This document shows, in pieces, positions 48,321 to 60,772 of a stretch of DNA of 64,000 bases (the first letter of the stretch is position 1; each line of letters opens with the position of its first letter). A model generated the notes under the pieces. The model did no database searches. It had not been told where the DNA came from and saw only the letters and a program-made list of their open reading frames with translations. The position numbers were made by a program, and so were the translations under genes. The stretch is from contig JAHECA010000002.1 in the NCBI GenBank assembly GCA_024642005.1, forward strand, positions 2,756 through 66,755, in the 5' to 3' direction. This stretch comes from Robiginitalea sp. GTDB taxonomy: Bacteria; Bacteroidota; Bacteroidia; Flavobacteriales; Flavobacteriaceae.

Positions 48321-48483
48321 ACCCCACAATTGAGGATAGATTTGACTGATTGCAACCTCTGGTCCCGCACAGGCGGGGCCGCAAAAAATGCTAAAGCAGT
48401 TGGCTGTTCCCTTTACGGGAGTTAGCCATTCTACTGTCTGGCATCGCAATCATCCCAAGCCTGTCTTCCGAAAGAAAAGAGCA

Positions 48484-49740: not shown

Positions 49741-49814
49741 AATTTTGGGCAGCAATGGGAGGAATCGCACGACTCCACCTATATTTGCCCAGACGTTCAA
49801 ACAAATATTGACCG

Positions 49815-49948
49815 GTTATCAAGAAAGGCGGAGGGAGTAGACCCTGTGAAGCCTTAGCAACCCTTCAGCTTCCCTGAAGAAGGTGCTACATTCTAACCCG
49901 GTGCGGACCCCTGCCTGCAGGCGGTCTTCACTCCCCGGGAAAGATAAC
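49815..49948 (+). ncRNA. SAM-I (S-box) riboswitch
   Basis: P1 GTTATC/GATAAC; core ATCAAGAAAGGCGGAGGGAGTAGACCCTGTGAAGCCTTAGCAACCCTTC...GAAGGTGCTACATTCTAACC. Confidence 0.93.
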
Positions 49949-50044
49949 GCATGGGCTCTGCCCCCTGTCCTTTCTTTTTAACTTAACTTATTGAGCCTGC
50001 GCCCCGGGAAAAAACCCCTTGTCGGCAGGCGCAACGCAGTAGTT

Positions 50045-54679: not shown

Positions 54680-55087
54680 ATGCTTTCCAAAAAGACCAAA
54701 TACGGGCTCAAGGCGCTCACCTACCTGGCTCGTCGCAAAGACCGCAGCCCCGTTCAGATTGCGGAGATTGCCCGGCACGAAAACATCTCTCAGAAGTTCC
54801 TGGAGAGCATATTGCTGACCCTTCGCAAGAACGGCTACCTGGGTTCCCGAAAAGGGAAGGGCGGCGGGTATTACCTGATCAAGGACCCGGCTGAAATCCC
54901 CATGACCGGGGTTATGCGCGTGTTGGAAGGCCCCATTGCCATGGTGCCCTGCGTGAGCCTCAATTTTTACGAAACCTGCGATGACTGCCCCGATGAAGCG
55001 ACCTGCTCGGTGCACAAGCTCATGCTGCAAGTCCGCGACAGCGCCCTGGAGGTGTACCGCAACAACTCCCTGGCCGACATTATCTAA
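54680..55087 (+). CDS. Rrf2 family transcriptional regulator
   Basis: MLSKKTKYGLKALTYLARRK...ISQKFLESILLTLRKNGYLGSRKGKGGGYYL wHTH; CDDCPDEATCSVHK cysteine cluster. Confidence 0.95.
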   Translation: MLSKKTKYGLKALTYLARRKDRSPVQIAEIARHENISQKFLESILLTLRKNGYLGSRKGKGGGYYLIKDPAEIPMTGVMRVLEGPIAMVPCVSLNFYETCDDCPDEATCSVHKLMLQVRDSALEVYRNNSLADII

Positions 55088-55148: not shown

Positions 55149-55165
55149 ACTAGTAAAACGATGGG
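55149..55165. promoter_or_regulatory. Operator-like motif copy 1 (ACTAG-TAAAACG-ATGGG)
   Basis: Part of the three-copy motif around cysH/sir. Confidence 0.5.
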
Positions 55166-55192
55166 GTAAATCGAAAAATTGAGTAAATTTAG

Positions 55193-55223
55193 TTTGCACG
55201 ATTCGGAAAGTGGCCTATATTTG
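55193..55223 (+). promoter_or_regulatory. Bacteroidetes-type promoter TTTG-N19-TATATTTG upstream of cysH
   Basis: TTTG 55193-55196, 19-bp spacer, TATATTTG 55216-55223. Confidence 0.7.
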
Positions 55224-55228
55224 TAAAC

Positions 55229-55245
55229 TCTAGTAAAAAGATAGG
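55229..55245. promoter_or_regulatory. Operator-like motif copy 2 (TCTAG-TAAAAAG-ATAGG)
   Basis: Just downstream of the predicted -7 box, overlapping the expected start of transcription. Confidence 0.55.
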
Positions 55246-55255
55246 ATAATAAATC

Positions 55256-55879
55256 ATGTCATTCAGCCCGCAGCTAATCGACCACCTGAACCCCCAGCTT
55301 AAGGGGATTGCTCCTGAAGAAATCATTTCATGGGCCGTTGAAAGAGCCCGAAGGCCAGTTATTACGACCAACTTCCGCCCTTATGAGGTTGCCATTTTGC
55401 ACGCAGTTTCTGGCGTATTCCCGGAAATACCGGTCATCTGGTGCGATACCGGGTACAACACCCCCCAGACCTACCGCCATGCAGAAGAACTCATCGGGCG
55501 CCTGGGCCTGAACGTGCATTTGTACGTCCCCCGGCAAACTGCCGCTCATCGCGATGCCGTTATGGGGATGCCAGGGGTAGACGATCCCCGCCACCGCGAG
55601 TTTACCGAACAGGTAAAGCTGGAGCCCTTCCGCCGTGCCATGCAGGAGCACAAGCCCGATGTGTGGTTCACCAACCTGAGGCGCGGGCAAACTGCACATC
55701 GCGACAGCCTCGATATTTTAAGCCTGGACCGCTCCGGCATGCTGAAAGTGAGCCCCTTCTATTATTGGAGCGATACCCAGCTCGACGCATACCTGCACTC
55801 GTTCGGGCTACCCAATGAGCACCACTATTTTGACCCGACCAAAGTATTGGAAAACCGGGAATGCGGCCTGCATACCTAG
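55256..55879 (+). CDS. cysH: Phosphoadenylyl-sulfate (PAPS-type) reductase
   Basis: RPVITTNFRPYEVAILHAVSGVFPEIPVIWCDTGYNTPQTYRHAEEL; C-term ENRECGLHT. Confidence 0.9.
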   Translation: MSFSPQLIDHLNPQLKGIAPEEIISWAVERARRPVITTNFRPYEVAILHAVSGVFPEIPVIWCDTGYNTPQTYRHAEELIGRLGLNVHLYVPRQTAAHRDAVMGMPGVDDPRHREFTEQVKLEPFRRAMQEHKPDVWFTNLRRGQTAHRDSLDILSLDRSGMLKVSPFYYWSDTQLDAYLHSFGLPNEHHYFDPTKVLENRECGLHT

Positions 55880-55910
55880 GTGAAGGTCCCCTATTTTTTT
55901 ATTTATAAAA

Positions 55911-55927
55911 CCTATATAAACGATAGG
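55911..55927. promoter_or_regulatory. Operator-like motif copy 3 (CCTAT-ATAAACG-ATAGG, perfect inverted repeat)
   Basis: 5-bp inverted repeat with 7-bp spacer in the cysH-sir gap. Confidence 0.55.
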
Positions 55928-55941
55928 AATACTATAATATT

Positions 55942-58035
55942 ATGAAAAGCTTCCGCTCCGAACTTGAAAATCCGGTTGTCGAAAAAGATATCATTGCACT
56001 CGAACGCAAAATTCGGGAGTTTCGCGAGGGCGGCCTTCCCGAAGAGCGGTTTCGCAGCCTGCGGCTCGCCCGCGGGGTATACGGCCAGCGTCAGCCGGGC
56101 GTGCAGATGGTGCGGATCAAACTGCCCTACGGCAAGGTGAGCTCCCGTCAGCTTCGGCGGATCGCCGGGGTATCAGATACCTTTTCCACTGGAAAGCTCC
56201 ATATTACCACCCGCCAGGACATCCAGATCCACTATGTAGACCTCGAACGCACCCCCGAACTCTGGGCCGAACTGGAGCGCGACCAGGTAACCCTCCGGGA
56301 AGCCTGCGGCAATACGGTGCGCAACGTGACCGCCAGTGAAACGGCCGGGATCGACCCTTCGGAGCCCTTCGATGTTTCCCCCTATGCCCAGGCCGTGTTT
56401 GACTATTTTCTGCGCAACCCCGTCGGCCAGGAAATGGGCCGTAAATTCAAGGTTTCCTTCTCGGCCAGCGAGTCAGACACCGGCCTTTCCTATATGCACG
56501 ACCTGGGGTTCATCGCCAGCCTGCGAAACGGGGAGCGTGGGTTCCGCGTGTTGCTGGGAGGCGGCCTTGGAGCCCAGCCCCGCCACGCCGACCTGCTGTA
56601 CGATTTTTTGCCCCAGCAGGAGATCATCCCCCTGATGGAATGCGTGGTGCGGGTATTTGACCAGTACGGGGAGCGCAAAAACCGATCCAAGGCCCGCCTG
56701 AAATTTCTGCTGAAAGACCTGGGCCTGGAAGGCTTCAAAGCCCTGGTTGAGCAACAGCGGCTTGCCCTTCCCCTGCAGGAACTGGGTATCGAACATGGGA
56801 ACTACCCTGAGGTGAAACCGGCTGAAACAGCGCCGGAAATACCTGAGGTAAAAGACCAGGCCGCTTACCGGGCCTGGATGGCTACCAACGTGCTTCCCCA
56901 AAAGCAGGCCGGTTTCAAGGCTGTCGGGGTTCGGGTGTTCCTCGGGAATTTCACCACCGATCAGGCCCGCAGCCTGGCCAACCTTGCCGAGGGCCACGGG
57001 GCAGGCGAACTGCGTTTCTCCCTGCGGCAAAACCTACTGATCCCCTATGTAAGGGAGGCCTGGCTACCTTATTTTTATCAGGAATTATCGGCCATGGGCC
57101 TGGCTGCCCCCGGCTACAATTCGGCTGCAGACATCACGGCCTGTCCCGGCACCGATACCTGCAACCTCGGTATTGCCAGCAGCACGGGTATCGCCTCCGA
57201 GCTGGAACGGGTCATTGCCCGCGAATATCCTGAATTTCTTTACAACCCCGACGTGGTGATCAAGATAAGCGGCTGCATGAATGCCTGCGGCCAGCACACC
57301 ATGGCCCATATCGGCTTTCAGGGCATGTCGGTGCGCACCCCCGACCAACGGGTTGCCCCGGCCCTTCAGGTGCTTTTGGGAGGCGGCAACCTCGGGGGCG
57401 GGCAGGGCCTGTTCGCCGACAAGGTCGTCAAAATTCCCTCCAAGCGCGGGCCTATGGCGTTGCGGCTCATCCTGGACGATTATCTGTCACAGGGCAACAG
57501 GCGCCCGTACCATGAGTATTACCGGGAACAGGGCCAGCTCTATTTTTACGACCTGCTCAAGCCGCTTACAGCGGTAGACGATCTGGAGGAGGAAGACTTT
57601 ATCGACTGGGGAAACCGGGAAAAATACCAAAAGGAGATTGGAGTGGGCGAATGCGCCGGGGTGGTGATCGACCTGGTGGCCACCTTGTTATTCGAGGCTG
57701 AAGAAAAATTGGCGGAGGCCGCCGAGGCCCTGGTAGCCGGCAAATGGGCGGCAGCAATCTACCTGGCCTACAGTGCCCGGGTGCAGGCGGCCAAGGCCCT
57801 GCTAACGGCCGAGGACCACCCGGCCAATACGCATGCCGGCATTGTGGAAGACTTCGACAGGCGCTTCGGGCATACCGAAGCTTTCAGTGGAATCCCCTCC
57901 CTGGGCAGCCAGGTAGCGCTGATGCAGGAAACATCGCCTGCCGAATCCTTTGCCCGCCGGTACACGGAAGAGGCGCGGGCCTTTGTGAAACAGGCTGAGG
58001 CCTTCCGCCGCCAAACACTGAGTCATGCGTCCTGA
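55942..58035 (+). CDS. Ferredoxin-type sulfite/nitrite reductase with C-terminal HEPN-like domain
   Basis: Siroheme/4Fe4S motifs TACPGTDTCNLGIASS and KISGCMNACGQH; ~120-residue helical extension ECAGVVIDLVATLLFEAEEKLAEAAEALVAGKWAAAIYLAYSARVQAAKALL. Confidence 0.93.
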   Translation: MKSFRSELENPVVEKDIIALERKIREFREGGLPEERFRSLRLARGVYGQRQPGVQMVRIKLPYGKVSSRQLRRIAGVSDTFSTGKLHITTRQDIQIHYVDLERTPELWAELERDQVTLREACGNTVRNVTASETAGIDPSEPFDVSPYAQAVFDYFLRNPVGQEMGRKFKVSFSASESDTGLSYMHDLGFIASLRNGERGFRVLLGGGLGAQPRHADLLYDFLPQQEIIPLMECVVRVFDQYGERKNRSKARLKFLLKDLGLEGFKALVEQQRLALPLQELGIEHGNYPEVKPAETAPEIPEVKDQAAYRAWMATNVLPQKQAGFKAVGVRVFLGNFTTDQARSLANLAEGHGAGELRFSLRQNLLIPYVREAWLPYFYQELSAMGLAAPGYNSAADITACPGTDTCNLGIASSTGIASELERVIAREYPEFLYNPDVVIKISGCMNACGQHTMAHIGFQGMSVRTPDQRVAPALQVLLGGGNLGGGQGLFADKVVKIPSKRGPMALRLILDDYLSQGNRRPYHEYYREQGQLYFYDLLKPLTAVDDLEEEDFIDWGNREKYQKEIGVGECAGVVIDLVATLLFEAEEKLAEAAEALVAGKWAAAIYLAYSARVQAAKALLTAEDHPANTHAGIVEDFDRRFGHTEAFSGIPSLGSQVALMQETSPAESFARRYTEEARAFVKQAEAFRRQTLSHAS

Positions 58036-58792
58036 AGGCAAACTCACCCTGGTGGGGGCGGGCCCCGGCGATGCGGAACTGATCACCCTGAAGGGCCTGC
58101 GCGCTTTGCGCGAAGCCGACGTGGTACTGTACGATGCCCTGGTGAACCCGGAATTGCTGGAATACGCTCCGCGGGCCGAACAGCTGTTTGTGGGCAAACG
58201 ACTGGGCTGCCAGGCCTATGCCCAGCAACAGATCAATGAACTGATCGTGCAGCGGGGCCGCAGCTGCGGCCACGTGGTGCGCCTAAAGGGAGGCGACCCA
58301 TTCGTGTTCGGGCGCGGCGCAGAAGAAATGGAGTATGCCCTTTCGCAAGGCATGGAGGTGGCGGTGGTACCCGGGCTCTCGTCCTGTCTGTCGGTGCCTG
58401 CCTCCCTGCACATTCCGGCAACCCTGCGCGGGGTTGCCGAGAGCTTCTGGGTTATTACCGCCACCACACGCGATCACCGGCTAAGCGCCGATGTGGCCCT
58501 GGCGGCCCGTTCGTCGGCTACGGTGATTATTCTGATGGGCATGTCCAAATTGCAGGAGATCATGGCTTGTTTTGAGCGTGCCGGGAAGCCCGATACCCCG
58601 GTAGCCGTTATCCAGGAGGGAACTACGGCCCGCGAGCGCTCTGCCACAGGCACGGTACAGACAATAGCCAGCCAGGTAAACCGCCTGGGCTTGCGCAACC
58701 CGGCCGTGATTGTGGTGGGCGAAGTGGTAACAGCGGCCAAGGGGCTCGGCGTCTTGCAGCCCAAAGTCTTGAAGGCGCTTCAAACAACCTGA
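58025..58792 (+). CDS. cobA: Uroporphyrinogen-III C-methyltransferase
   Basis: LTLVGAGPGDAELITLKGLRALREADVVLYDALVNPELL; VVRLKGGDPFVFGRGAEE. Confidence 0.96.
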   Translation: MRPEGKLTLVGAGPGDAELITLKGLRALREADVVLYDALVNPELLEYAPRAEQLFVGKRLGCQAYAQQQINELIVQRGRSCGHVVRLKGGDPFVFGRGAEEMEYALSQGMEVAVVPGLSSCLSVPASLHIPATLRGVAESFWVITATTRDHRLSADVALAARSSATVIILMGMSKLQEIMACFERAGKPDTPVAVIQEGTTARERSATGTVQTIASQVNRLGLRNPAVIVVGEVVTAAKGLGVLQPKVLKALQTT

Positions 58793-58794
58793 CC

Positions 58795-59388
58795 ATGGAA
58801 CGAAATAACCTGTATCCGATTTTCCTGAAGTGCAGCCAGCTTGAAATCTTGCTGGTGGGAGGAGGCCATGTGGCTGCCGAAAAGCTCCATTTCCTGATCA
58901 AATCGAGCCCCGACGCCCGGATAACCCTGGTGGCCCCGCTCGTTCGCGAAAATACGGCCGACCTTGCCGAGGCCCATGATGTCAGGATAATCAGGACCGA
59001 ATACCATGCCGGCTATTTGCAAGACAAGCACCTGGTAATCGCCGCTACCGACAACCCGGCGGTGAACCAGGCCGTGTACCGTGACTGCCGCCGCATCAAC
59101 CTGCTCGTGAATGTGGCCGACAACCCGCCCCTTTGCGATTTCTATATGGGGGGCATTGTAACCAAGGGTCACCTGAAGGTGGCCATCAGCACCAATGGCC
59201 AGTCGCCGACCACTGCCAAGCGGCTGCGTGAATTTTTCGAAGACATACTCCCAGACGACCTGAGCCGGCTGGTCGAAAACCTGCATGCCTACCGCCAAAC
59301 CCTGAAATCCGATTTCGAGGCCAAAGTACGCGAAATGAACCGGGTGACCCGGAAACTGGTCGCCCCAAAAACCGTGAAGGAATCATGA
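58795..59388 (+). CDS. Precorrin-2 dehydrogenase / sirohydrochlorin ferrochelatase (CysG-N/Met8p type)
   Basis: LYPIFLKCSQLEILLVGGGHVAAEKLHFLIKSSPDARITLVAP; INLLVNVADNPPLCDFYMGGIVTKGHLKVAISTNGQSP. Confidence 0.93.
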   Translation: MERNNLYPIFLKCSQLEILLVGGGHVAAEKLHFLIKSSPDARITLVAPLVRENTADLAEAHDVRIIRTEYHAGYLQDKHLVIAATDNPAVNQAVYRDCRRINLLVNVADNPPLCDFYMGGIVTKGHLKVAISTNGQSPTTAKRLREFFEDILPDDLSRLVENLHAYRQTLKSDFEAKVREMNRVTRKLVAPKTVKES

Positions 59389-60446: not shown

Positions 60447-60536
60447 CCCGGGGCAGGGGGCCAAAAAAGCCCATGACCGCTTGCTTTTGAGCGGGGCTTG
60501 CCGTTTCTTTGCGGCAGTTCATTGCCACCCTGTCGA

Positions 60537-60669
60537 GTTATCAGGAAAGGTGGAGGGAATAGACCCGGTGAAACCTTAGCAACCCTTCGACCCCAGAGGC
60601 CCGGAGAAGGTGCTACATTCTAGCCTGCGGTTCCCAGCCACGCCGGGAAGACCCGCACGGACAGATAAC
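60537..60669 (+). ncRNA. SAM-I (S-box) riboswitch
   Basis: P1 GTTATC/GATAAC; core ATCAGGAAAGGTGGAGGGAATAGACCCGGTGAAACCTTAGCAACCCTTC...GAAGGTGCTACATTCTAGCC. Confidence 0.94.
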
Positions 60670-60772
60670 GATCCCGCAAGGGTTCTGCCCAAAAAAAGTC
60701 CCATTCCTGTTCTACCTGCCTGTCAGCCCCTGAGGCCTGAAGGCTGGACGGCACTGGCAAAAATGGAATGCG

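Follow-up and report, generated by a model that had tools for sequence, protein, structure and literature searches.

A conserved operator-like motif around cysH and sir in Robiginitalea sp., probably recognised by the Rrf2 regulator encoded next door

The cysH-sir locus

In the 64,000-nucleotide stretch of Robiginitalea sp. DNA analysed here (the window), an O-succinylhomoserine-sulfhydrylase-like gene is followed by a gene for an Rrf2-family transcription factor (rrf2), a promoter with one copy of a repeat on either side (copies 1 and 2), cysH, a third copy (copy 3), sir, cobA and a sirohaem-synthase-like gene. The genes from rrf2 onwards lie on the forward strand. The rrf2 gene (54680-55087) encodes 135 aa and was assigned to the family by PF02082 (124.2 bits, cut-off 30) and by TIGR00738 (115.1, cut-off 73.3). 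The product of cysH (55256-55879) is a PAPS-reductase-family protein of 207 aa (PF01507, 81.7 bits), for which the best NCBIfam model, PRK02090, gave 119.8, under its cut-off of 154. The sir gene (55942-58035) encodes a sulfite/nitrite-reductase-family protein of 697 aa (PF01077, PF03460), and its end is overlapped by a cobA/cysG-type uroporphyrinogen-III C-methyltransferase gene (58025-58792; TIGR01469, over the cut-off). Next comes a gene for a sirohaem-synthase-like NAD-binding protein (58795-59388; PF13241, PF14824). Both of these last genes are likely to belong to the same operon, in which the cobA/cysG-type product probably makes sirohaem for Sir.

The locus is flanked in the window by a SAM-II riboswitch (48326-48404) and two SAM-I riboswitches (49813-49950 and 60535-60671); thus, the surrounding genes appear to be under RNA-based control of their own, and cysH-sir under the predicted operator control described below. 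Although cysH and sir are present, CysD and a PF01747 ATP sulfurylase were not found in this genome, and CysD is present in six other genomes of the genus. Sulfate activation has either been lost here, or is absent from the draft assembly, or is done by another enzyme.

Three copies of the motif and their conservation

The copies, all on the forward strand, are ACTAGTAAAACGATGGG (copy 1, 55149-55165), TCTAGTAAAAAGATAGG (copy 2, 55229-55245) and CCTATATAAACGATAGG (copy 3, 55911-55927), the last being located in the cysH-sir gap, 14 nt 5' of the sir start codon. The sequences and coordinates reported in the initial annotation are exact, as is its description of copy 3 as a perfect 5-bp inverted repeat with a 7-bp spacer. 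The string ATAAAAC, which it described as preceding both copies 1 and 3, is present in both; however, it overlaps the motif and is one base out of register (TTATAAA-ACTAG compared to TTATAAA-ACCTAT).

Across the 3.4-Mb genome, the pattern CTANNNAAANGATRGG matches exactly at four places, namely the three copies and a position within a coding sequence; its reversed control matches nowhere. Because this pattern was derived from the copies themselves, the independent test is a weight matrix trained only on genera other than Robiginitalea, which was scanned over the 64-kb window. The copies rank first to third (30.1 bits for copy 2, 21.4 for copy 1 and 20.0 for copy 3), and the next unrelated site scores 5.1; in 60 simulated windows, the highest score was 16.4, with a mean of maxima of 6.9. 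It should be noted that the genome-wide scans of the Robiginitalea genome itself were pattern searches; patterns with up to three mismatches produced 25 matches versus 36 for the reversed control, i.e., only noise, and weak genome-wide matches were therefore left out. Another pattern, CTANNNAAAACGATNGG, was out of register, and its matches did not exceed chance level.

Orthologues of rrf2 are present in family-level relatives, and 80 named loci of Flavobacteriaceae contain one. The motif obtained from the matrix trained on the relatives is YCTAYTAAATCKATAGGRTAA, a CC-N13-GG dyad, and in 1.4 Mb this matrix had 141 matches compared to none for a column-permuted matrix at the same threshold. In 74 of the 80 loci, a site follows the rrf2 orthologue and lies at the cysH promoter. 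It was not found downstream of rrf2 in the other six (L096, L123, L134, L138, L141 and L142); L134 is on a short contig and L123 has a site upstream of rrf2 instead. Many genera have a longer operon, with a DUF2061 gene ahead of cysH and about 2.4 kb separating cysH from sir, and there the promoter sites precede the DUF2061 gene. Other families of the class have a more symmetric site, resembling CCTATTAAATTAATAGG, adjoining rrf2. Several two-mismatch sites in relatives were located within coding sequences and were discarded. The initial annotation had made its proposal depend on conservation of the motif at cysH and sir orthologues, and the motif is conserved there. Judged by this comparison of sequences, the three repeats are genuine regulatory sites, which about 30 Flavobacteriaceae genera retain at fixed positions around the promoter of sulfur-assimilation genes.

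Of 70 loci, 29 have a site before sir that scores over 10 bits. A pre-sir site is also present in the other Robiginitalea species (L033-L036), two of them at 19.9 and 26.2, and most single-copy genomes are without copy 3. Like copy 3 itself, pre-sir sites nearly always have no -7 box ahead of them (one exception, L092). The distance from their end to the start codon of sir is 9-14 nt in Robiginitalea and in most loci of Flagellimonas, and 50-60 nt in Maribacter, Arenibacter and Zobellia; this varying distance speaks against a ribosome-binding role and fits a DNA-bound block within the operon. Conservation before sir thus backs the role proposed earlier for copy 3, a second control point.

Sites also occur at separate loci in Flavobacteriaceae, at most 50 nt from the start codon of a 1-Cys peroxiredoxin gene in 14 of 22 genomes, and several of these promoters have the -7 box inside the site. 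In five more distant peroxiredoxins a site was looked for and none was found. Upstream of cysD in the other Robiginitalea genomes, there is no clear site except one 19-bit match (L251).

Promoter geometry and candidate modes of action

The predicted cysH promoter, read from the forward strand as in the initial annotation, consists of a -33 element TTTG (55193-55196), N19 and a -7 box TATATTTG (55216-55223), with copy 2 beginning 5 nt past its end and the transcription start predicted at 55228. In F. psychrophilum, TAnnTTTG is placed at -12 to -5 (PMC9723704); on this placement, copy 2 spans roughly +2 to +18, and copy 1 roughly -79 to -63 with its centre near -71. In 67 of 84 loci, the TAnnTTTG box begins exactly 14 nt ahead of the downstream CTA, and in 40 of the 44 two-site loci that were scored, the upstream and downstream copies are 79-81 bp apart. 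Among the 80-bp loci, the spacers have a mean identity of 47%, compared to 33% when shuffled, and form 17 groups below 60% identity, suggesting that length is held while the sequence drifts.

The position of copy 2 over the predicted start, together with the -7 box inside several peroxiredoxin sites, is a repressor-like placement. We consider the three copies to be almost certainly the binding sites of the product of the neighbouring rrf2 gene, as predicted from comparative data. Taken as a whole, the best explanation, and in our view a very probable one, is that they are operators of the adjacent Rrf2 protein, which in Flavobacteriaceae would be a regulator dedicated to assimilatory sulfur reduction and would repress cysH-sir. 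Such repression had been proposed at the outset, and the proposal is supported in so far as the putative operators are conserved at orthologues, are positioned for repression and follow the operon. In the scheme that we infer, an Rrf2 dimer would read the 17-bp dyad CCTAY-N7-RTAGG and, at copy 2, would block initiation or escape at the cysH promoter; cysH-sir would be shut off when reduced sulfur, or a cluster or redox state reporting it, suffices. Copy 1, in promoter register, would either reinforce repression or let Rrf2 touch RNA polymerase, and copy 3 would be the second control point ahead of sir, most likely through an elongation block. Repression from the start-overlapping operator is the simplest reading, and it is common to single- and multi-copy genomes.

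The same Rrf2 protein could instead be mainly an activator, with copy 1 as a class I site and copy 2 serving only feedback repression at high occupancy, which we regard as possible but rather unlikely. The centre of copy 1 matches a class I activator position, as known for CRP near -71.5. In 38 of 43 two-site loci, the -7 box follows the CTA of the upstream copy at a distance of exactly 66 bp, and this constancy points to more than simple repression. In L033 and L034, copy 2 is shifted by 6 bp and copy 1 is still 66 bp from the -7 box, whereas the sole large exception, L072, has a distance of 55, shorter by one helical turn. These cases suggest phasing of copy 1 to RNA polymerase and not to copy 2, although there is one evolutionary event of each kind, and a spacer identity above that of shuffled sequences indicates that some descent remains. 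The -33 TTTG is rarer in two-copy promoters (3/41 versus 8/30, p = 0.04 uncorrected), which, with the class I position of copy 1, points to possible activation; conversely, about half of the genomes have the start-site operator only. Under the preferred reading, repression from copy 2, the upstream copy may add activation, i.e., dual action.

A broader version would give one Rrf2 protein three like operators with three jobs, phased activation near -71, start-site repression and a block before sir, in a regulon that couples sulfite reduction to 1-Cys peroxiredoxin, so that sulfide, persulfide or redox state would be sensed and not cysteine alone. We offer this as a speculation that is unlikely to hold in full.

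It is quite improbable that the sites are bound by another regulator, for example a further Rrf2 paralogue or some unrelated factor, and that the adjacency of rrf2 is incidental. A distant Rrf2 paralogue with 33% identity is encoded in the same genome, but the sites track this rrf2 group, adjoining rrf2 in several families and standing upstream of rrf2 itself in some loci (L214, L057). In a locus of another family (L278), the site lies between rrf2 and a peroxiredoxin gene. Adjacency by itself could be misleading, but in G020 (L213), rrf2 is about 7 kb off, and the sites remain with cysH, 80 bp apart, plus one before sir. The sir gene is present in 15 of 19 genomes with an rrf2 orthologue and in 0 of 12 without (p = 2e-5, relatedness not corrected).

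That the motif works in mRNA, as a hairpin or ribosome-binding element, is very hard to sustain. Copy 3 folds into a 5-bp hairpin (-3.4 kcal/mol) and copies 2 and 3 sit 9-14 nt from start codons in Robiginitalea; however, copy 1 precedes the promoter, copy 2 shows no folding (-0.2), the distance from site to sir start ranges from 9 to 60 nt, and the peroxiredoxin sites that contain the -7 box are difficult to reconcile with such a role. The hairpin was rejected because copy 2 is unfolded and the arms do not covary, with C-A or G-A at positions 5/13 in 48 of 97 distinct cores. A chance likeness of three AT-rich stretches, conceivable for a motif first built on just three copies, has a negligible probability, being contradicted by conservation and already refuted by the other-genera matrix.

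Relation to known Rrf2 regulators and further sites

The predicted winged-helix fold of the Rrf2 protein matches CymR, IscR and RsrR, the best match being CymR (PDB 2y75, TM 0.82). The equivalog models of the characterised regulators scored below their cut-offs: CymR NF047409 at 77.5 versus 195 bits, IscR TIGR02010 at 71.7 versus 207.55 and NsrR NF008240 at 48.1 versus 182. Four cysteines, C91, C100, C103 and C109, are invariant in an alignment of 20 orthologues, so a bound metal or Fe-S cluster is plausible; residues 90-98 are the least certain region of the model, with pLDDT below 50.

CymR, the cysteine-metabolism repressor of Bacillus and Staphylococcus, is likewise an Rrf2 protein acting on sulfur-assimilation genes, and the sites described here fall at such genes, cysH and sir. 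Unlike the protein with four invariant cysteines, CymR binds no Fe-S cluster (PMC9338935). It works together with CysK (PMC3828012), and the regulon predicted here is a local and not clearly a global one.

The E. coli IscR type 2 motif is xxWWWWCCxYAxxxxxxxTRxGGWWWWxx (PMC4055776), and the operator resembles it in the CC-N13-GG dyad, 5-bp arms, 7-bp centre and W-rich flanks. The geometry of CCTAY-N7-RTAGG is that of a type 2 site; however, the inner arm bases differ, the arms being CCTAY here and CCxYA in IscR. The predicted targets are in sulfur reduction, compared to isc and suf for IscR, and the C92/C98/C104 pattern of IscR is replaced by C-x8-C-x2-C-x5-C, with one cysteine more. IscR, which has the same fold, represses as well as activates. 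Among the Fe-S regulators NsrR and RsrR, the NsrR dimer makes no base contacts with the central 7 bp of its operator (PMC9338935), a likeness to the 7-bp centre here, whereas the targets of NsrR are different.

In open-access papers, we found no description of sulfate assimilation being controlled by an Rrf2 protein in Bacteroidota; subscription papers or regulon databases may contain an earlier prediction. For about 30 genera, the analysis yields a regulator together with its predicted operator, the geometry of the promoter and a short list of targets, and it extends the initial annotation by the fixed promoter distance of copy 1 and the inclusion of a peroxiredoxin in the predicted regulon. 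The protein is very probably a local Rrf2 regulator of sulfur genes that has an operator of its own, and the promoter architecture may be a dual-use one. The fixed positions near -71 and +10 would allow a clean test of dual action, activation and repression of one promoter by one Rrf2 protein, in a phylum with an unusual promoter (TAnnTTTG).

Several further sites were observed. A strong one (32.7 bits; L195:2622-2642, on contig C71 of the same Robiginitalea genome) immediately precedes a 164-aa ORF without a match in Pfam and is also upstream of a divergent S10-peptidase gene, at a distance of 156 bp; on the ORF strand, the site is preceded by TACTTTTG, and homologues of the ORF (L246, L247) are without a site. 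In G015, a 26.5-bit site (L203:2431) is located about 80 bp upstream of a ferredoxin-like gene that neighbours a gene for a NUBPL/Mrp-type Fe-S carrier, hinting at Fe-S targets in some genomes. Across genera, the peroxiredoxin promoters of L215, L218, L219, L233 and L237 have a second element like TTTAATAnAnTTTAACC about 40 bp upstream of the operator, possibly the site of another regulator. In three loci of a related family (L275, L276 and L279), the rrf2-sir gap has no recognisable operator and contains a short Cys-containing ORF before sir (MCSCCKTM, MYSCSKTK and MMCCCHNSIR), followed in L275 and L279 by a stable hairpin with a T run; as read from these sequences, the arrangement looks like a cysteine leader-peptide attenuator.
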